41,478 bases of DNA, taken from the NCBI GenBank assembly GCA_903870905.1, contig CAIQEU010000007.1:1-41478 (forward strand), in the 5' to 3' direction. Each line of letters opens with the position of its first letter. Position 1 is the stretch's first letter. Shown in pieces: positions 19,423 through 30,625 of the stretch. Position numbers and translations under genes: made by a program. This DNA comes from an uncultured Actinomycetes bacterium. GTDB taxonomy: Bacteria; Actinomycetota; Acidimicrobiia; Acidimicrobiales; RAAP-2. Below the pieces are notes generated by a model. The model was not told the origin of the DNA. It did no database searches and saw only the letters and a program-made list of their open reading frames with translations.

Positions 19423-20388
19423 GTGGGAACTGGCGAAGTCCCGGTGGGAGGCGCCCCAGTCCCACCATCTGCTGACGGCGGCATGCGCCGCTCAATCCCC
19501 ATTCCCACCCGGCTCAGCGCAACGCTGGAAGCGCTGCGCCCTCGACAGTGGGTGAAGAACGTCTTGGTCGCGGCCGCCCCGGCCGCCGCCGGTGTCCTCC
19601 ACGAGCCCGAAACCTTGCGAGTGACGGCGTGGACGTTCGTGGCCTTCTGCTTCGCATCATCAGCGATCTACTTGTTGAACGACGCACGTGACGCAGCAGC
19701 GGATCGTCGCCACCCGACGAAGTGTCATCGGCCAATTGCTCGAGGTGATGTCCCCGTTCCCATGGCCCTGGCCCTCGCTGCGGCCTTCGGCCTCGGTGCC
19801 GTGGCCCTCGGCTGGAGTGCGGGGACCGGCGCACTCGCCATCGTCCTCGTGAGCTACCTCACCATCAACGTCGCGTACTGCTTCGGCGTGAAGCGCATTG
19901 CGGTCATTGAACTCGGCGCCGTGGCATCGGGATTCATCCTTCGGGCTGCAGCTGGCGGCGCCGCCCTCCACCTCCCACTCTCGAAGTGGTTCCTCGCCGT
20001 TGTCAGCTTCTCGGCGTTGTTCGTCGTGACAGGGAAGCGCATGAGCGAGCTCCAGCAGATGGGCGAAGGCAACGACCAGACCCGCGCCGTGCTCGCCTCG
20101 TACACGCAGTCCTTCCTCCAATCGGTGTTGACCCTCTCTGCCGGCGTGGCGGTGACGACCTACTGCCTGTGGACGTTCGACAAGGGCATCCCCCACGCTG
20201 GCCACCTCCCCCGCTACGTCTTCTTGGAGCTCACCACGGTGCCCGTCGTCCTCGGCGTCCTCCGCGTCCTGCAGGCAATGGATGCTGGAGAGGGTGGCAG
20301 CCCCGAGGACCTCGTCTACCGAGACCGGACCCTGCAGATCCTCGGCCTTCTCTTCGTCGCCCTGTTCGCGGTTGGTGTCTATGGGTAG
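19423..20388 (+). CDS. ubiA: Decaprenyl-phosphate phosphoribosyltransferase (UbiA-like)
   Basis: This 321-residue polytopic membrane protein is of the UbiA prenyltransferase superfamily. It transfers phosphoribose from PRPP to a polyprenyl phosphate, the first committed step to decaprenylphosphoryl-arabinose. The RPRQWVKN opening and the Asp-rich loop NDARDAAADRRHPTKCHRPIA (starting at N86) are typical of the DPPR synthase branch, as is the later YCFGVKRIAVIELGAVASGFILRAAAGG. About eight membrane segments are visible. The pairing with dprE1 and dprE2 immediately downstream makes this call strong. The start is set at the GTG following the -10 box; the ATG at 19483 is the alternative and lacks a ribosome site. 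Confidence 0.92.
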   Translation: MGTGEVPVGGAPVPPSADGGMRRSIPIPTRLSATLEALRPRQWVKNVLVAAAPAAAGVLHEPETLRVTAWTFVAFCFASSAIYLLNDARDAAADRRHPTKCHRPIARGDVPVPMALALAAAFGLGAVALGWSAGTGALAIVLVSYLTINVAYCFGVKRIAVIELGAVASGFILRAAAGGAALHLPLSKWFLAVVSFSALFVVTGKRMSELQQMGEGNDQTRAVLASYTQSFLQSVLTLSAGVAVTTYCLWTFDKGIPHAGHLPRYVFLELTTVPVVLGVLRVLQAMDAGEGGSPEDLVYRDRTLQILGLLFVALFAVGVYG

Positions 20389-20392
20389 GTCA

Positions 20393-21739
20393 ATGGAACG
20401 CTTGACCGGCTGGGGCCGAACCATGGCGGTGCAGGCTGAGCGAGCAACGCCGAGCACCACCGACGAGTTGGCTGATCTCCTGTCGCCCACCGGCCCCGGC
20501 CACGGCGTCATCGCCCGAGGCCTCGGCCGCTCCTACGGTGACCCCGCCCAGGTGGCTGGCGGCACCGTCGTCGATCTCTCAGCGTTCAGCGCGATCTCCG
20601 CAGTCGACGAACGTACCCATGCGATCACCGTCGGGGCTGGCGTCTCCATTGACACCCTGCTCCACCACATCCTCCCTCTCGGCTACTTCGTCCCCGTGAC
20701 CCCTGGCACCCGGCAGGTCACCATCGGCGGTGCCATCGCCGCCGACATCCACGGCAAGAACCACCACGTCGACGGCTCCTTCGCCTCCCACGTGGTCTCG
20801 ATGGATCTCGTCACCCCCGTCGGCGTAATGACCGTGACCCGAGACCGTGATCCCGAGCTCTTCTGGGCGACCGCTGGGGGCATGGGGCTCACCGGCATCG
20901 TGACGGCCGCCACCATCACCTTGTTGCCCATTGCGTCCACGATGGTCAGCGTCGACACCACCCGGCACCGCAACTTGGACGAGGTCATGGCCGCCATGGT
21001 CGACGGCGACCACCGCTACCGCTACTCCGTGGCGTGGGTTGACTGCATGACGAGCGGGGCCACCATGGGTCGCGGCGTGCTCACCCGAGGCGACCACGCT
21101 CCCGCAGACCGGGGTCGCCCGCCGACCACCATCCCCACCGGTGCCAGCGTTGCCGTGCCGTTCAACGCACCCCCCGGCCTCCTCAACCGTCTCTCCATCA
21201 CCGCCTTCAACGAGGCGTGGTTCCGTGCTGCACCCAAGGAACGTCTCGGTGGCATCGAATCCATCTCCACCTTCTTCCACCCCCTCGATGGCGTCGCCAA
21301 CTGGAATCGCCTGTACGGTCCCCGCGGCTTCGTGCAGTACCAGTTCGCCGTTCCCGATGCCGCGAGCGCCACGGTGGCCACCGCAATTGAGCGCCTCGCC
21401 GCATCGAAGGTGCCGAGTTTCTTGGCGGTACTCAAGCGCTTCGGAGCCGGCAACCGCGGTCCGCTCTCGTTCCCGACGGCTGGCTGGACCTTGGCGCTCG
21501 ACCTGCCCGTGGGACCACCGGCACTGCCCGCCGTGCTTGATGACCTCGACGACCTCATCGCTGCTGCTGGCGGGCGGATCTACCTCGCCAAGGATGCGCG
21601 CCTCAACCCCGCCCACCTCGAGACCATGTACCCCGCACTCGCCGAGTTCCGTCGAGTCGCCGACCGGGTCGATCCCGAGCGACGCCTCACCTCAGATCTC
21701 GACCGACGACTCAACGTGAGAGGACCCCGTCATGCGTGA
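20393..21739 (+). CDS. dprE1: Decaprenylphosphoryl-ribose 2'-oxidase DprE1
   Basis: This 448-residue FAD oxidoreductase (VAO/PCMH fold) oxidises decaprenylphosphoryl-ribose at C2', the first half of its epimerisation to the arabinose donor. FAD-binding RGLGRSYGDPAQ and VTPGTRQVTIGGAIAADIHGKNHH match DprE1. The active-site Lys is conserved in IYLAKDAR (K400), as is that in VLKRFGAGN (K348). The residue matching M. tuberculosis Cys387, the covalent target of benzothiazinones, is Ala368 in GWTLALDLP. The ATG at 20393 is 4 nt after the ubiA stop. The 3' end overlaps dprE2 by 8 bp, as expected for a protein pair that works together. Confidence 0.94.
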   Translation: MERLTGWGRTMAVQAERATPSTTDELADLLSPTGPGHGVIARGLGRSYGDPAQVAGGTVVDLSAFSAISAVDERTHAITVGAGVSIDTLLHHILPLGYFVPVTPGTRQVTIGGAIAADIHGKNHHVDGSFASHVVSMDLVTPVGVMTVTRDRDPELFWATAGGMGLTGIVTAATITLLPIASTMVSVDTTRHRNLDEVMAAMVDGDHRYRYSVAWVDCMTSGATMGRGVLTRGDHAPADRGRPPTTIPTGASVAVPFNAPPGLLNRLSITAFNEAWFRAAPKERLGGIESISTFFHPLDGVANWNRLYGPRGFVQYQFAVPDAASATVATAIERLAASKVPSFLAVLKRFGAGNRGPLSFPTAGWTLALDLPVGPPALPAVLDDLDDLIAAAGGRIYLAKDARLNPAHLETMYPALAEFRRVADRVDPERRLTSDLDRRLNVRGPRHA

Positions 21740-22493
21740 CGCCTTCGGACAACCCCAAACTGCCATCCTCTTCGGCGGCACCTCTGAGATTGGTCTGGCC
21801 ATCGTCGATCGCCTCGCCGCCGCCCGACTTCGCCACGTCGTCCTCGTGGGTCGCAACCCATCGGCACTCGAGGATGCGGCCAGCGCACTGCGAGCTCGCT
21901 CGGTCACTGCCACAGTGGTCCTCGCCGATGCCGCCGACGCCGCGAGCGCCACCGATGCCGTCGATCAGGCATTCGGAGCACTCGGTGCCCCGTGCGATCT
22001 CGTGATCATGGCCGTTGGACTCCTCGGCGATCAAGCCGCGGACGATGACTCACCCGAGCGCACCGCCACGATGTTCGTCGTGAACACCGCGTGGCCGGCG
22101 GCAGTGCTCGCTGGATGCCGCGCTGCGCTCGTCGCCCAAGGCACCGGGCAAATCCTGGTGCTCTCTTCAGTCGCGGCGCTGCGAACTCGGCGAGCCAACT
22201 ACACCTACGGGGCCGGCAAGCAGGGGCTCGATGGCTTCACCCTCGGACTCGCCGAGTCCGTCCGGGGCACCGGCGTCACCGTGCACCTCATCCGCCCAGG
22301 GTTCGTCACCACCAAGATGACCGGACACTTGAGCCCTGCACCGTTCTCCACCACCGCTCCTGCGGTTGCAGAGGTTGCCGTGACGGCAGTCATGAAGGGC
22401 ACACCTGTCGCCTACGCACCGGGAATCTTGCGCTACGTCTTCCTCGGGCTGCGCCACTTGCCCTCGGCACTGTGGCGCAAGCTCCCTGGCTGA
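21732..22493 (+). CDS. dprE2: Decaprenylphosphoryl-2-keto-ribose reductase DprE2
   Basis: This 253-residue short-chain dehydrogenase uses NADH to reduce the keto intermediate made by DprE1, yielding decaprenylphosphoryl-arabinose. The cofactor loop is FGGTSEIGLAI (about 14-24). VLSSVAALRTRRANYTYGAGK carries the catalytic Ser and Tyr-x3-Lys. The C-terminal tail, YVFLGLRHLPSALWRKLPG, is typical of DprE2 and probably meets the membrane. GAGAGGA precedes the ATG. The stop is 2 bp from that of the convergent glycosidase-like gene. Confidence 0.93.
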   Translation: MRDAFGQPQTAILFGGTSEIGLAIVDRLAAARLRHVVLVGRNPSALEDAASALRARSVTATVVLADAADAASATDAVDQAFGALGAPCDLVIMAVGLLGDQAADDDSPERTATMFVVNTAWPAAVLAGCRAALVAQGTGQILVLSSVAALRTRRANYTYGAGKQGLDGFTLGLAESVRGTGVTVHLIRPGFVTTKMTGHLSPAPFSTTAPAVAEVAVTAVMKGTPVAYAPGILRYVFLGLRHLPSALWRKLPG

Positions 22494-22495
22494 CT

Positions 22496-23689
22496 TCAGC
22501 CTGTTGGCCCCGTGGTGCGCGCCTGCATTACGACGAAGTCCCGGTTGAACCAGGTGTCGAAGTAGCGCGCTGGTGACGAGGCCATCCCCGACAGCAACGG
22601 TGTGCCGTTCTGTCCATTCGCTCGGCCGTGTGGTCCGTAGTTGTAGGTCGAGTACTGCACCCAGTCCGTGTTGATGTCGGACTCCATGGCCCGAACCGCC
22701 CCGGCTCGCACCAACAGGTCAGCGAGGGAGACAATGGACAGCGACGGTCCGCCTACGTAGACGAGCGCACCGTCCTTCGTCACGCCGAGTCCTGAACGCC
22801 ACACGTAGACCCCGCCGCCGAGTGCGAGCCCCCACCTCGTCGACGCGGTGGCGGTGAGGCCGGGAACCGGCGCACCGTGATCCACGATGAGGTCGAGGTT
22901 CTGACGAACAGCGACCACGTCGGGGGTCATGGTGACGTCTTTGCCCCAGGCCCCAACGGTGGAGCTGCCGTTGCGGTAGATCACGAAGGACGCTCCGCCA
23001 TTTCGCAGTGGTAACCCAGCCAGGACGTGACCATCGGTGTAGTAGCCGCCTTGGGCATCTTGCATCCGGAACCCTGAGTTGAACGCCGCGACGACGGTCT
23101 TCGCGTTCTCCTTCGAGATCGGCGCGGTGTTCTGATACGGCCCACCACCGGGGATGAAGCTCCCCGAGTACAGCGAGGCCTTGAGGAGTGCCGTGTCCAT
23201 CCAGGCAATGGCGGCAACCTGGCTCGTGTGGACTGCGTCGACGCGCACGACCGTCTTCAAGATTGCCGGCTCACCGTGGACGCTGCGACCAACTTGGGTC
23301 CACACCCCTTCACCAGGAAGCGCCGGAACCGCAGGCGACACGACGCGTGGCGGGATGGGCAGCGCACCACCAGCACCTGATTGGAGCACCGGTCCACCGC
23401 CGGTGATGGCACCTGCTGGTGGCTTGCCGCCCTTGGGTGGCGGGTGACTCGAGTACCACCAGTTCTCGATCTTGGTGACGAGGGATCCCCCACCATGCTC
23501 GCGAGCCCACTCGGCAACCCGTGCCGACAAACTGGTTCCGTAGGCGGGATTGACGAGGAAGGTTCCGAGGGAGTAGCCGACGAATATCGACGCGACGAGG
23601 GCGACGGCGAGCAGGCCAACCGCAATTCGCCGACGCCGATACGTCGTGCGCATTGCGCCATGGCGAGGACGGTAGGACTGAGAAACCAC
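22496..23689 (-). CDS. Membrane-anchored phosphodiester glycosidase-like (NAGPA domain) protein
   Basis: The 397-residue protein starts with a basic segment and one hydrophobic helix (about 22-44), suggesting a signal anchor with the rest outside. A Pro/Gly-rich linker (about 80-125) leads to a C-terminal domain with TVVAAFNSGFRMQDAQGGYYTDG, WGLALGGGVYVWRSGLGVTKDGALVYVGG and VRAMESDINTDWV. This pattern matches the phosphodiester glycosidase (NAGPA/DUF2233) domain. Characterised relatives remove GlcNAc from GlcNAc-1-phosphodiesters, so a cell-surface polymer substrate is plausible. It is convergent with dprE2. The GTG start follows a GAGAG site; the ATG 12 codons later (MRTTYRRRR) is an alternative. 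Confidence 0.78.
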   Translation of the reverse strand: MVSQSYRPRHGAMRTTYRRRRIAVGLLAVALVASIFVGYSLGTFLVNPAYGTSLSARVAEWAREHGGGSLVTKIENWWYSSHPPPKGGKPPAGAITGGGPVLQSGAGGALPIPPRVVSPAVPALPGEGVWTQVGRSVHGEPAILKTVVRVDAVHTSQVAAIAWMDTALLKASLYSGSFIPGGGPYQNTAPISKENAKTVVAAFNSGFRMQDAQGGYYTDGHVLAGLPLRNGGASFVIYRNGSSTVGAWGKDVTMTPDVVAVRQNLDLIVDHGAPVPGLTATASTRWGLALGGGVYVWRSGLGVTKDGALVYVGGPSLSIVSLADLLVRAGAVRAMESDINTDWVQYSTYNYGPHGRANGQNGTPLLSGMASSPARYFDTWFNRDFVVMQARTTGPTG

Positions 23690-26165: not shown

Positions 26166-27860
26166 ATGCGTACGATGCCCGTCGAGGATCCAGGAACCCC
26201 TGACCTCCAGTCCCCGGCGCGCTTTCTCATCTGGGTCGGCAAGCAGCAACTGTCGACCCTGCTCGGTGGGTTGATCTTCGGGGTGACCTGGATGTTGGCC
26301 CAAGCGTTGACGCCTGCGGTGATCGGTCAAGGGATCAACGCCATCAAGCGTGGCGACCACCACGCGCTCGTTACTTGGTCCGCCGCCGTGTTTGGGCTCG
26401 GGATCGCCATGGCGATCTCTGGTGTCGTCCGCCACCGATTCGCAGTCACGAACTGGATCGTGGCTGCCTTCCGCACCGTCCAACTCCTCGGCGAGCACGT
26501 GGCCGATGCTGGTATGCCGATCACCGCAACTATTGCCACTGGTGACGTCGTCAACACCATGGCTTCAGACGCCATGCGGATCGGTGGCGCCTACGACGTG
26601 GTCGCTCGATTCGTCGGTGCCATCGTCTCCTACCTCGTCGTGGCCTTCATCATGCTGCGCACGAGTGTGCTCCTCGGGACCATCGTGCTCGTGGGTGTTC
26701 CCCTCCTCGTGCTCGGCATCAGCCCCCTCATCAAGCCCCTCCAACAACGTCAGATGGCAGTTCGCGAGCAGGCTGGGAAGCTCACCGCTGTTGGCGCCGA
26801 CACCGTGGCCGGCCTCCGCATCCTGCGCGGCATCGGGGGCGAAGGCGTCTTCTTCGATCGCTACCGATCGCGCAGCCAAGACGTCCGAGCTGCTGGCGTG
26901 GCGGCAGCAACGCCCCAGGCCACCCTCGACACCGCACAGGTTGCCCTTCCGGCGATCTTCATCTTGGTCGTGACCTGGGTGGGTGCTCGCCTCACGATCT
27001 CCCACGAATTGAATGCTGGACAGCTCGTCGCGTTCTACGGCTACGCCGTGTTCCTGGTCGCCCCCCTGCGCACGGCAACCGAATTCGTGGAGAAGGTGAC
27101 CCGGGCCCTCGTCGGTGCCCGCAAGGTCATCGCCGTGCTGAGCATTGCCCCACTCGGTCGACACGATGCCAGTACCGCCTCGCCACCAGTTGGCAGTGCA
27201 CTCGAGGATCTCGTCACCGGTCTCCACGTCCCAGGGGGAACGTTCTGTGCCGTCGTGTCCGAAGACCCGAGTATCGCGGCATCGGTTGCAGAGCGGCTCG
27301 GCGCCTTCGCCGCTCCAGCTGGTCGCCTCGGTGGCACTGAACTCACCGAATTGGCCATTACCGAAGTCCGGCGTCGGATCGTGGTCTCTGAGACCGAGCC
27401 TCGCCTGTTCAGCGGACCCCTGCGGGGTGAACTCGATCCGACAGAGTCCGCCAGCGAGGTCGACCTCGCTGCTGCACTCCACGTGGCAGCCGCGCACGAC
27501 GTGATCGACGCCCTCCCAGCCGGCCTCGATGAGATCGTCGAGGAACGAGGACGGAGTTTCTCCGGTGGACAGCGTCAGCGCTTGGCGCTCACCCGTGCGC
27601 TCCTGACCAACGCCGAGGTCCTCATCCTCATCGAGCCAACGAGTGCCGTCGACGCCCATACCGAGATGGCGATTGCCGAGCGACTCCGTGCCGCACGTGC
27701 GGGCAAGACCACCGTCGTCGTGACCTCATCACCACTCCTCCTCGATCGCTGCGACCTCGTGGCCTTCGTCGCTGGCGAGACGTTGGTAGCCACTGGCACC
27801 CACCGTGAACTGCTGAGCACGCCGGCGTACACCGCAACCGTCCTGCGAGGCGCGGACTAA
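26166..27860 (+). CDS. ABC exporter half-transporter with degenerate nucleotide-binding domain
   Basis: The 564-residue protein has a type I exporter membrane domain (about residues 20-310, six segments) and a C-terminal ABC domain. The P-loop is gone: the region is VVSEDPSIAASV (363-374) with no Gly-Lys-Ser/Thr. The Q-loop position reads SETEPRLFSG. Walker B is VLILIEPTSAVD, with Ile for the Asp but the Glu kept. The switch His region is TSSP. In contrast, the signature FSGGQRQRL (465-473) is intact. The stop overlaps the start of the partner gene (TAATG). The loss pattern complements the partner, so this is a functional asymmetric heterodimer subunit rather than a decaying gene. Substrate unknown; drug or lipid export is typical. 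Confidence 0.88.
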   Translation: MRTMPVEDPGTPDLQSPARFLIWVGKQQLSTLLGGLIFGVTWMLAQALTPAVIGQGINAIKRGDHHALVTWSAAVFGLGIAMAISGVVRHRFAVTNWIVAAFRTVQLLGEHVADAGMPITATIATGDVVNTMASDAMRIGGAYDVVARFVGAIVSYLVVAFIMLRTSVLLGTIVLVGVPLLVLGISPLIKPLQQRQMAVREQAGKLTAVGADTVAGLRILRGIGGEGVFFDRYRSRSQDVRAAGVAAATPQATLDTAQVALPAIFILVVTWVGARLTISHELNAGQLVAFYGYAVFLVAPLRTATEFVEKVTRALVGARKVIAVLSIAPLGRHDASTASPPVGSALEDLVTGLHVPGGTFCAVVSEDPSIAASVAERLGAFAAPAGRLGGTELTELAITEVRRRIVVSETEPRLFSGPLRGELDPTESASEVDLAAALHVAAAHDVIDALPAGLDEIVEERGRSFSGGQRQRLALTRALLTNAEVLILIEPTSAVDAHTEMAIAERLRAARAGKTTVVVTSSPLLLDRCDLVAFVAGETLVATGTHRELLSTPAYTATVLRGAD

Positions 27861-29602
27861 TGGCCACCCCGCTTCCCGTCGCCGATGCTCGAGAGACACG
27901 GGTCCAAGCCATGGCCTACCTGCGCCGGCACCGTCGCGGGTTCATCCTGATCGTCCTCACCCAAACCGTCGCCGCCCTCTGCGGCCTCGTCGGCCCGTTC
28001 CTCCTCGGACGGCTCGTCAACGACATTGGCAACGGGCTGACGATGCACACGGTCAACATCTTGGCCGGACTCCTCGCCGCTGCGCTCATCTTGCAGAGCG
28101 CCTTCACGTTCTTGACGAGACGCCAGAGCTACATCCTCGGAGAAGAAGTCTTCGCCGAGTTGCGAGAGAACTTCCTCGGGCGACTCTTGGAACTCCCCCT
28201 CTCGGTCGTCGAGCGAGCGGGGACCGGTGACCTGTTAGCCCGAACGACCAACGACATGGACGCGCTCGCCTACACCGTGCGGTTCGCGGTCCCTGAATCA
28301 CTGGTGGCGATCGTGACCCTCGTCGTGACCATCGTGGCCGTCATCGCCACCTTGCCGGTCATGGGACTCGTCTGTTTGACCGGGACGCCTCTCCTCGTCC
28401 TCGGCACCCGGTGGTACCTCTCCCGAGCGCCCGAGAGCTACCGCCGAGAACGTGCCAGTTACGCCACCATGTCGGGAACCTTCTCTGAAACTGCTGATGG
28501 CGCTCGCACCGTCGACGCCTTGAGCCTCGCCGAGCGCCAGAAGCAGCGACTCCGCCGTGACCTCGCCGAGTCCTACAAGTGGGAGCGGCGCAACCTCTTC
28601 CTGCGCTGCACGTGGTTTCCCTTCGTCGATGCTGGCCTCTCCCTCCCGGTTGCGCTCTCGGTCTTCGTTGGTGGCCTGCTCTGCTTCTCGCACCATGCAA
28701 CCGTCGGCCAAGTCACCGCCGTCACCTTGTACGTCCAACAACTCGGAGATCCGCTCGACCGATTGCTGTCGTGGCTCGACGAGCTCCAGATCGGGACCTC
28801 GGCGCTGGCCCGACTGTTCGGCGTGGCCCTCGTCGCCGATGACCGGACCCCAACCGGGGCTGTGCCGGAAGATGAAGCGATCACGGCCACCGACGTCACC
28901 TACGCCTACCGAGAAGGTCACGACGTCCTCCGAAATGTGTCGGTCGCCCTCACGCCCGGGGAGCGCCTCGCCATCGTGGGACCCTCGGGTGCGGGAAAGT
29001 CCACCCTCGGACGGCTCCTCGCTGGCATCGATGGGCCTCGTCTCGGCAGCGTGGACGTGGGCGACGTGCCGCTCACCGACCTCGCCCTCAATGACCTCCG
29101 AGGCCATGTGGCGCTCGTCACCCAAGAGCACCACCTCTTCATTGGATCCGTCCGAGACAACCTGATCCTCGCCCGCCCCGGAGCCGACGATGCTGCCCTC
29201 CTCGCTGCGCTCGACGCCGTCGACGCAAAGGGGTGGGTCCTCGAGCTGCCGAGTGGTCTCGACACCGAGATTGGCTCGATTGGCCACCAGCTCTCCCCAA
29301 GCCAAGCGCAGCAGTTGTCGCTCGCTCGACTCGTCCTCGCTGATCCCCACACCTTGGTCCTCGACGAAGCCACCAGCCTCCTCGACCCCCGAGCTGCTCG
29401 CCACCTCGAGCGGTCCCTATCGGCCGTCGTCGACGGCCGAACCGTTGTCGCCATCGCCCACCGCCTCCACACCGCCCACGACGCCGACCGGGTCGCAGTC
29501 GTCGACGGCGGGCAGATCACCGAACTTGGAACCCACGACGAACTCATCGAACGCAACGGCTCCTACGCCGCCTTGTGGCGGAGCTGGCGCGACGAGGCCT
29601 AA
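27860..29602 (+). CDS. ABC exporter half-transporter, catalytic partner
   Basis: The 580-residue protein has an N-terminal six-helix exporter domain (about 30-310) and a C-terminal ABC domain. Walker A GPSGAGKST (374-382), Q-loop LVTQEHHLF, Walker B TLVLDEATS and the switch His in AIAHRL are all intact. The signature, however, is LSPSQAQQL (from residue 478) instead of LSGGQ. It is translated with the upstream half-transporter (TAATG overlap). In the heterodimer its Walker A would face the partner's intact signature to make one competent ATP site. The other site has neither a P-loop nor a proper signature. Confidence 0.92.
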   Translation: MATPLPVADARETRVQAMAYLRRHRRGFILIVLTQTVAALCGLVGPFLLGRLVNDIGNGLTMHTVNILAGLLAAALILQSAFTFLTRRQSYILGEEVFAELRENFLGRLLELPLSVVERAGTGDLLARTTNDMDALAYTVRFAVPESLVAIVTLVVTIVAVIATLPVMGLVCLTGTPLLVLGTRWYLSRAPESYRRERASYATMSGTFSETADGARTVDALSLAERQKQRLRRDLAESYKWERRNLFLRCTWFPFVDAGLSLPVALSVFVGGLLCFSHHATVGQVTAVTLYVQQLGDPLDRLLSWLDELQIGTSALARLFGVALVADDRTPTGAVPEDEAITATDVTYAYREGHDVLRNVSVALTPGERLAIVGPSGAGKSTLGRLLAGIDGPRLGSVDVGDVPLTDLALNDLRGHVALVTQEHHLFIGSVRDNLILARPGADDAALLAALDAVDAKGWVLELPSGLDTEIGSIGHQLSPSQAQQLSLARLVLADPHTLVLDEATSLLDPRAARHLERSLSAVVDGRTVVAIAHRLHTAHDADRVAVVDGGQITELGTHDELIERNGSYAALWRSWRDEA

Positions 29603-29638: not shown

Positions 29639-30625
29639 GTGACTGATGCTCCGTCGATCAAGCTCAAGTACCTCATCGCCGGCGTTGCCGCCAGCGTGCT
29701 CCTCGCCGTTGTCGCTGTTGTCGGCATTGTGCTGGTCGTTGCTCCCGCCAGCCCCACGGTTGCCGAAGAGCACCGCGCACTCGCCACGACGCCTGGACCG
29801 ACGGGGCTGACCGCCGGCACCACGCCGACGCGCGCGAACACCGTCTGGGTGACCGCGTGGCAACCGCAGCACTCCCTCGCCGAGCTCCTGAGCCTACCGA
29901 CGGGACGAGTCCTCAACCAGATCATCTGCAAAGGTCCTGACGGCACGACGAATGATCTGAGCGCCACCGTGGTGGGCACCGCAGCATCCCTCCTCATCGT
30001 CGGGCTGACGAACCACCACACCGAGCGCACCTGGACCAACGTGCTGGCCTACTACGACGCAGCGACGGGAGCACCTCGTGGTTACACCCCGCTCCCAGAC
30101 GGCGCCATCAGAGACCTCAACACCAGTGCCACTGGGATGGGCGTCGACGTCCTCATCACGACGGGCCGCAGCGCCACCGACGTTGTTGTCAACGCCACCG
30201 CGCACCTCGCGGTGATCCCACCAACCGCCCCTGATCACACCGAGGTGGTTCGGCTCCCTGCGGCGACCATTGGCATGGTGCTCACGACGAACAACGCCAA
30301 GATCTACGCCCTCGAGCGCAACGGACGCGTCGCCGTGATTGACCGGAGCAGCGGCCAGGTGACGGGGACCATCACCGTCGATCCGGCGTCGTCTCGAATC
30401 GGTATCTCGGGCGACGGCACCGTGCTCTACCTCTTGGTGCCCGGAGCGAACGGCGGCCACGACCGCGTCGACCTCTACCGAGCGAGCGTTGGAGAGTTCG
30501 TGGTTGCCATGGACGCACCGCCACACACGCACTGGATTCTGCCAACCGCCAATGGCGAACGCATGGTCGATTTCGCCGGCACCTCGACCTCGGGGACGAT
30601 CGCCCAGTACCGAATGCTCGGCTAG
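29639..30625 (+). CDS. Membrane-anchored extracytoplasmic protein, possible beta-propeller
   Basis: The 328-residue protein has a short cytoplasmic start, one membrane helix (about 11-36) and an exported remainder. The outer part has repeated strand-rich segments with patterns like KIYALERNGRVAVIDRSSGQVTGTITV and SRIGISGDGTVLYLLVPG, reminiscent of WD/YVTN-type propeller blades. I do not recognise a named family. It follows the ABC exporter by 36 nt and converges on guaA (10-bp gap). A role as an accessory or sensor for the exporter is possible but not shown. Start GTG is set by the -10 box 6 nt upstream. Confidence 0.75.
   Translation: MTDAPSIKLKYLIAGVAASVLLAVVAVVGIVLVVAPASPTVAEEHRALATTPGPTGLTAGTTPTRANTVWVTAWQPQHSLAELLSLPTGRVLNQIICKGPDGTTNDLSATVVGTAASLLIVGLTNHHTERTWTNVLAYYDAATGAPRGYTPLPDGAIRDLNTSATGMGVDVLITTGRSATDVVVNATAHLAVIPPTAPDHTEVVRLPAATIGMVLTTNNAKIYALERNGRVAVIDRSSGQVTGTITVDPASSRIGISGDGTVLYLLVPGANGGHDRVDLYRASVGEFVVAMDAPPHTHWILPTANGERMVDFAGTSTSGTIAQYRMLG

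Follow-up and report, generated by a model that had tools for sequence, protein, structure and literature searches.

Why so many exporters of the ATP-binding cassette (ABC) type retain one dead ATP site is an open question in the field, and a gene pair in a 41,478-nucleotide stretch of DNA from an uncultured Actinomycetes bacterium (contig CAIQEU010000007.1, hereafter the window) raises it in an extreme form: can such a pump dispense with nucleotide at its second site altogether? In excerpts from PMC7756269, PMC5216877 and PMC12038006, the nucleotide is described as staying in the degenerate site as glue or hub. The two genes, here called Sub1 and Sub2, are adjacent open reading frames (ORFs) on the + strand that overlap by one base (TAATG), with coordinates and lengths given in Table 1. 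Both encode an ABC_membrane transmembrane domain (TMD) fused to an ABC_tran nucleotide-binding domain (NBD), according to Pfam, as do all of the 40 alignment members checked. Sub1 and Sub2 are likely to be the obligate partners in a heterodimeric ABC exporter that has the ABCB-like fold and one composite ATP site. By sequence, Sub2 provides this site with the A-loop, P-loop, Q-loop, Walker B and switch His, and Sub1 contributes in trans the signature and the D-loop, whereas the other site has lost its ATP-binding parts on both subunits.

A preliminary description of the window held that Sub1 lacks both the P-loop and the switch His, has its Walker B Asp replaced by Ile and keeps FSGGQ, and that Sub2 carries every catalytic motif but has LSPSQ as its signature. 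Our reading of the motifs confirms both statements. Sub1 has VVSEDPSIAASV at the P-loop place, VLILIEPTSAVD at Walker B (Asp replaced by Ile, Glu kept) and VTSSPL at the switch, with Ser where His is expected, and Sub2 has GPSGAGKST, LVTQEHH, LVLDEATSLLD and IAHRL. The ABC_tran match of Sub1 begins only at profile position 45 of 137, so that the P-loop part is unmatched. The arrangement deduced earlier, one competent site and one that probably cannot bind ATP in the usual way, is supported by these motifs and by the family counts given below. There is no second copy of Sub1 in its own genome, where the next match is only 26% identical and belongs to a pair on contig C39 (L145, L146) with P-loops present.

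AlphaFold models of the single chains have a mean predicted local distance difference test score (pLDDT) of 85.1 and a predicted template modelling score (pTM) of 0.61 for Sub1, and of 84.0 and 0.64 for Sub2. The Sub2 model shows strands at 341-349, 355-364 and 369-373 and a helix at 378-387, with the P-loop between the last strand and the helix. The first two of these strands, which flank the A-loop Tyr, have no counterparts in Sub1, whose model lacks the A-loop strands, the remaining NBD being folded. There, strand 360-365 leads through a two-residue turn into helix 368-378, a plain helix start where the P-loop is expected. Both subunits match solved exporters of the ABCB-like, type IV fold over nearly their full length. 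Foldseek ranks TM287 (3qf4_A, E 7.1e-27) first for Sub1, followed by MsRv1273c, and in VIA-align Sub1 fits 3qf4_A with Z 27.4 and a root-mean-square deviation (rmsd) of 5.8 over 543 residues, many exporters being tied. Sub2 fits 4q4h_B with Z 27.3 and rmsd 6.0 over 569 residues, and its best structural matches are the ABCB6 NBD and IrtA, with TM288 slightly behind.

We aligned 121 first subunits of the P-loop-less family, 106 close and 15 distant, together with 19 canonical ones for comparison. The close rows include L103, a broken copy aligned over its C-terminal part only; the canonical rows are a selection among the matches listed in the profile search plus the own-genome pair; and two fused canonical proteins with two P-loops each (L158 and L163) were excluded from the counts. 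The P-loop Lys occurs in none of the close or distant rows (0/106 and 0/15) and in all 19 canonical rows, and the same is observed for the motif GxxGxGK[ST] over the profile-matched part of each protein (0/121 and 19/19). The preliminary description took a P-loop in relatives as a sign of recent decay; none was found in the 121 first subunits, the lowest measured identity being 31% (L108), and judging by these sequences, the loss of the P-loop is an old family trait, not recent decay. That heterodimeric exporters normally keep a P-loop in both halves, as the same description stated, holds for our 19 canonical rows and agrees with the excerpts of PMC7756269; the P-loop-less family departs in this respect from the TM287/288 type. 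A looser pattern, [AG]xxxxGK[ST], matches five of the 106 close rows, always at residue 513 before the switch strand. This is an ordinary stretch, and a concealed P-loop elsewhere in Sub1 was rejected.

Further elements of the same half-site are missing. The switch His is absent throughout the family (0/106 close and 0/15 distant, with 17/19 canonical), and the Walker B Asp is found in 9/106, 2/15 and 19/19 rows, respectively. The stretch holding the A-loop, from position 318 to 358, is shortened as well: its median length is 58 residues in the canonical proteins but 49 in the distant and 40 in the close group, with a Tyr somewhere in it in 17/19, 3/15 and 18/106, respectively. For the Q-loop, Gln was counted over the segment instead of the alignment column, which is unreliable for the canonical first subunits, and is present in 8/106 close, 0/15 distant and 4/19 canonical rows; since it is rare in the canonical proteins too, the Q-loop change is not particular to the P-loop-less family. 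By contrast with the opposite-site losses, the parts that Sub1 would lend to the competent site, namely the signature Ser and second Gly and the D-loop Asp, are present in every row (106/106, 15/15 and 19/19 for both motifs). We also observe newly conserved residues in the dead half, Pro368 (95/106), Ala371 (94/106) and Ser522 (121/121), with TSP as the usual turn. The Walker B Glu, residue 490 of Sub1, is found in 100/106 close rows, and Asp occupies this position in 11/15 distant and 18/19 canonical rows. The catalytic Glu thus persists in the close group, including the window, despite a dead-looking site, and its replacement, a trait of the TM287/288 type, is not observed in the window Sub1.

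For Sub2 there are fewer rows, because many of the fetched stretches end within the gene. The P-loop Lys (101/101 close, 12/12 distant, 18/18 canonical), the Walker B Glu (79/79, 2/2, 10/10) and the switch His (78/78, 2/2, 10/10) are present in all of them. The first signature Gly is found in 1/89 close, 1/11 distant and 1/10 canonical rows and the second in 4/89, 1/11 and 10/10, with the signature Ser kept in 68/89 close rows and Gln or Glu in 74/89. The D-loop Asp is present in 75/78 close, 0/2 distant and 10/10 canonical rows. The competent site thus preserves its elements, and the opposite site has lost its own on both subunits, with the exception of the Walker B Glu, a minority of the Walker B Asp, the Sub2 signature Ser and the close-group Sub2 D-loop Asp.

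The two subunits also travel together; a lack of such co-conservation would, by the preliminary description, have told against its reading. In the species-genome scan, Sub1 is adjoined by a Sub2 homologue scoring 300 bits or more in 78 of the best 80 of 111 relatives' loci, the other two (L010 and L062) being cut by contig ends. The Sub2 start codon lies -10 to +20 bp from the Sub1 stop in 72 of these 80 loci and within 150 bp in 78; L010 is without Sub2 and L069 without a nearby Sub2 start. Conversely, of at least 38 matches to the Sub2 profile in 396 Actinomycetota genomes (E 1e-120), 36 lie beside a P-loop-less Sub1, and the remaining two are a canonical partner (G152) and a gene beside a Sub1 remnant (G246, contig C11). 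The latter locus (L180, G246:C11:224500-231500) holds an N-terminal remnant of Sub1 and a truncated C-terminal part of Sub2 downstream of a canonical exporter pair, and in G042 the Sub1 frame is split and Sub2 internally deleted; both broken pairs seen are thus damaged in both members. In the distant group, Sub2 adjoins 13 of the 15 first subunits, although several of these pairs are incomplete where the contig or the fetched stretch ends.

A quick maximum-likelihood search with 67 first subunits (49 P-loop-less of the 121 and 18 canonical), from which the trait columns were omitted and which was rooted on six second subunits, places the 49 P-loop-less proteins in one clade with 100% support in the Shimodaira-Hasegawa-like approximate likelihood ratio test (SH-aLRT). 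P-loop status and P-loop Lys each change once on this tree. The canonical first-subunit rows come together with a support of 13 and are for this reason treated as background, not as a clade. A FastTree tree of the second subunits gives the same groups (close 100, distant 96), with a warning of two long branches meeting, L160 and L161. TM287-type pairs are the nearest P-loop-bearing relatives found, with a DDAT-type Walker B in the TM287-like first subunits and an LSAGQ-type signature in the partners. Within the P-loop-less clade we count three or more changes of the Walker B Asp, the loss of which is therefore an event separate from that of the P-loop.

Selection was estimated as pooled Nei-Gojobori dN/dS over 745 pairs of 88 sequences, which share history and whose GC-rich codons bias the absolute values. 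For Sub1 the ratio is 0.34 in the TMD, 0.52 in the dead lobe (residues 345-405), 0.38 in 406-459, 0.13 in 460-500 and 0.35 in 501-558, so that constraint is strongest from signature to D-loop and weakest, still purifying, at the dead lobe. For Sub2 it is 0.34 in the TMD, 0.22 in the P-loop lobe and 0.11 from signature to D-loop. Constraint on the degenerate signature segment of Sub2 is as strong as on the intact segment of Sub1, as one would expect of a conserved contact more than of a remnant left free.

How might such a pair work? Each cycle would involve binding and hydrolysis of one ATP, with the dead half-site serving as a nucleotide-free protein contact, a hinge that holds the two NBDs aligned and replaces the role of the bound nucleotide in TM287/288 and related pumps. 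A distinct transport cycle for Sub1/Sub2 can fairly be inferred. More tentatively, and with a little less than even confidence, we propose that these pairs constitute a natural one-nucleotide ABC exporter family in which the second site is a permanent nucleotide-free hinge with its own conserved contacts, so that neither two-site alternation nor ATP glue at the degenerate site would be needed. The contacts of this hinge would pair the SPAQ segment of Sub2 with two parts of Sub1, the [D/T]P helix start and the TSP turn. A stable family without the ATP-binding loop and without the partner signature would represent a natural knock-out of the nucleotide glue; since the P-loop-less state is common to an actinobacterial pump family, nature may already have a pump with one ATP site. 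The number of nucleotides in such a pump would discriminate between one-site and two-site cycles, and orthologues are present in culturable actinomycetes, e.g. Nonomuraea, Streptosporangium and Streptomyces.

Several observations weigh against a nucleotide-free hinge in an obligate pair. Given the single origin, the joint loss in Sub1 and Sub2 amounts to one coincidence, not to repeated correlated evolution, and on these sequences the two losses are not demonstrably correlated; moreover, the stem that leads to the P-loop-less clade is long (1.15 changes per column in the quick tree). The Walker B Glu, some Walker B Asp and the Sub2 signature Ser and Gln/Glu are kept, so the dead site does not appear to be stripped of everything. 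Nor is loss of the P-loop alone proof of no binding, if we may judge by P-glycoprotein (P-gp), whose single Walker A mutants reportedly bind ATP according to excerpts of PMC4846820. In two of the 15 distant loci (L124 and L159) the partner is non-adjacent, about 11 kb off on the same strand, with an intact P-loop GATGAGK[ST] and a degenerate signature LDVTK. These two were rejected as orphan first subunits when a whole-genome search located the Sub2-type gene, an earlier null having covered about 2.7 kb and then about 19 kb around them; the gene in L124 is the same as that in L170. The two split pairs leave our assessment unchanged.

The Walker B residues kept in the dead site, together with the P-gp precedent and a fold shared with TM287, MsRv1273c and BmrC, could also belong to an ordinary heterodimeric exporter that runs the standard cycle and retains some weak or unusual ATP binding at its degenerate site. 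We consider this unlikely, as the difference is more than a point change: the P-loop has lost its glycines along with the Lys, the A-loop stretch is missing, the modelled helix begins at the P-loop place, and the partner signature is without both Gly in nearly all rows. CFTR and SUR, which excerpts of PMC7756269 give as ABC proteins with a degenerate site of the channel or sensor type, offer a precedent for a complex that does not pump, such as a gated channel or a sensor with Sub1 as regulatory partner, and in the close group no conserved neighbour gene points to a substrate. The strong selection on all catalytic parts of the competent site and the fold match to exporters make this quite improbable. 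A working Sub2 homodimer with Sub1 dispensable might be imagined from the complete cis motifs of Sub2 and the two non-adjacent distant pairs, but it is scarcely credible, since both of its sites would carry degenerate signatures, the signature segment of Sub1 is among the most constrained parts, and most gene pairs overlap or abut. We give equally little credence to decay of one half as a pseudogene, despite two broken pairs in other genomes (L180, L181) and the fast evolution of the dead lobe: the frame is open in the window, the P-loop Lys is missing from all 121 first subunits, selection is purifying in all tested parts of Sub1, and new invariant residues have appeared. For the family as a whole, the conservation refutes such decay. 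Family conservation and selection likewise led us to reject an assembly error.

The Sub1/Sub2 pair can be set against known systems. Like TM287/288 (Thermotoga maritima) and the actinobacterial pairs L133, L162 and own-genome C39, it splits consensus and degenerate sites between the halves, with a consensus site built from the cis motifs of Sub2 and the signature of Sub1. These pairs differ in that their first subunits keep a P-loop (19/19 canonical) and their partners one signature Gly (10/10). According to excerpts of PMC5216877, the degenerate site of TM287/288 binds nucleotide, which prevents NBD separation, unlike the state proposed here. MsRv1273c/72c (Mycobacterium smegmatis), also an actinobacterial heterodimeric exporter with a degenerate site, has in excerpts of PMC12038006 one state with a nucleotide-free contact at that site; it differs in having Walker A there as well, with ATP as glue. 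The excerpts of PMC7756269 describe degenerate sites as varying mainly by signature changes and Glu to Asp, and suggest MgATP as a stationary hub. The most changed case given there is yeast Pdr5, in which every motif of one site is altered, on both sides, as in Sub1/Sub2; Pdr5 differs by its inverse domain order (as ABCG) and by a Walker A that persists with Lys to Cys. Restoring canonical motifs in Pdr5 is reported in the same source to cause loss of activity. Human ABCG5/G8 likewise has Walker A and signature changes in one site, its Walker A change being Lys to Arg only. Human ABCB5beta resembles Sub1 in having an NBD without A-loop and Walker A (excerpts of PMC11391348), but there the feature belongs to the shortened isoform of a full transporter, which has an additional, incomplete NBD at its N-terminus, and not to a family of half-transporters that evolved to this state. 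P-gp with a single Walker A mutation still transports (PMC4846820), so that one intact catalytic site is enough, as would be the case here; these mutants are engineered. A further source, PMC4242082, deals with TAP in the part available. In the open-licence PMC literature we found no paper on a P-loop-less heterodimeric exporter family, which is weak evidence of novelty.

Table 1. Features of the Sub1/Sub2 gene pair, in positions of the window.
Feature	Position	Strand	Evidence
Sub1: ABC exporter half (TMD + NBD) without P-loop, 564 residues	26166..27860	+	ORF, Pfam, motifs, model
Sub1 residues 341-358: shortened N-lobe, without the strand pair bearing the A-loop in Sub2	27186..27239	+	lengths, models
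Sub1 residues 363-374: VVSEDPSIAASV at P-loop place	27252..27287	+	sequence, alignment, model
Sub1 residues 465-469: signature FSGGQ, intact; would serve the competent site in trans	27558..27572	+	motifs, alignment
Sub1 residues 485-490: VLILIE at Walker B, with Ile for Asp and Glu retained	27618..27635	+	motifs, alignment
Sub1 residues 493-496: D-loop SAVD, intact	27642..27653	+	motifs, alignment
Sub1 residues 520-523: TSSP at switch His stretch	27723..27734	+	motifs, alignment
Sub2: ABC exporter half, complete in cis ATP-site motifs, 580 residues	27860..29602	+	ORF, Pfam, motifs, model
Sub2 residues 374-382: P-loop GPSGAGKST	28979..29005	+	motifs, alignment
Sub2 residues 478-482: degenerate signature LSPSQ; presumed trans element of the dead site	29291..29305	+	motifs, alignment
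Sub2 residues 502-503: Walker B Asp-Glu	29363..29368	+	motifs, alignment
Sub2 residue 534: switch His	29459..29461	+	motifs, alignment

The best 80 of 111 relatives are 41 to 76% identical to Sub1 and come from Acidimicrobiaceae metagenome-assembled genomes, Streptosporangium, Nonomuraea, Microbispora, Actinomadura, Jiangella, Streptomyces, Micromonospora, Longispora and others. Among the 396 Actinomycetota genomes, at least 25 have a profile match that reaches E 1e-90, to which the distant group is added, and a tally over the profile searches gives a close or distant member in at least 28; three candidates per genome were scored, so these counts are lower bounds. The window's family (code f1) has a member in at least five of eight genomes, and none occurs among the other genomes listed from the same order. 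Such a patchy distribution makes transfer or loss likely. Outside Actinomycetota, no member was found in 72,556 plasmid records (E limit 1e-20), the sole set searched there. Twelve plasmid records have a member (Streptomyces 10, Nonomuraea 1, Arthrobacter 1), and an annotation, 'ABC transporter ATP-binding protein', is present on five of the 12. In NZ_LT559118.1 (Nonomuraea gerenzanensis), tblastn gives three places for Sub1, the best of which is without a listed annotated feature.

In the four nearest loci (L005-L008) uvrD adjoins the pair, with guaA farther out in three of them (L006 ends first). Beyond these the context varies, and deducing a substrate for the close group from its neighbourhood was therefore rejected; the neighbour clustering covered 36 of the 80 loci, with single-linkage clusters that include spurious reverse-frame ORFs. 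In the distant group, the pairs in L173 and L174, and also in L170 and L159, have genes for nonribosomal peptide synthetase and phosphopantetheinyl transferase nearby (Pfam), and L170 and L159 also come after ORFs that by eye resemble condensation domains. The distant-group pairs near peptide synthetase genes are possibly exporters of peptide metabolites. Our guess for the transport direction is export, perhaps with a nonribosomal peptide as substrate for some distant members. Two genomes of family code f33 (L171, L172) have a canonical P-loop exporter half within a few kb of the P-loop-less pair.

In the window itself, a 328-residue protein with a hydrophobic N-terminal stretch and no Pfam match (29639-30625, +) starts 37 bp past Sub2. 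It is 29-33% identical to the gene at the same place in L005 and L007, which suggests a fast-evolving, possible operon member. Upstream, at 20282-22493 (+), we observe an FAD-binding oxidase and a short-chain dehydrogenase, a pair that we presume to resemble DprE1/DprE2, and this pair is adjoined at 22496-23689 by a gene with a weak NAGPA match.

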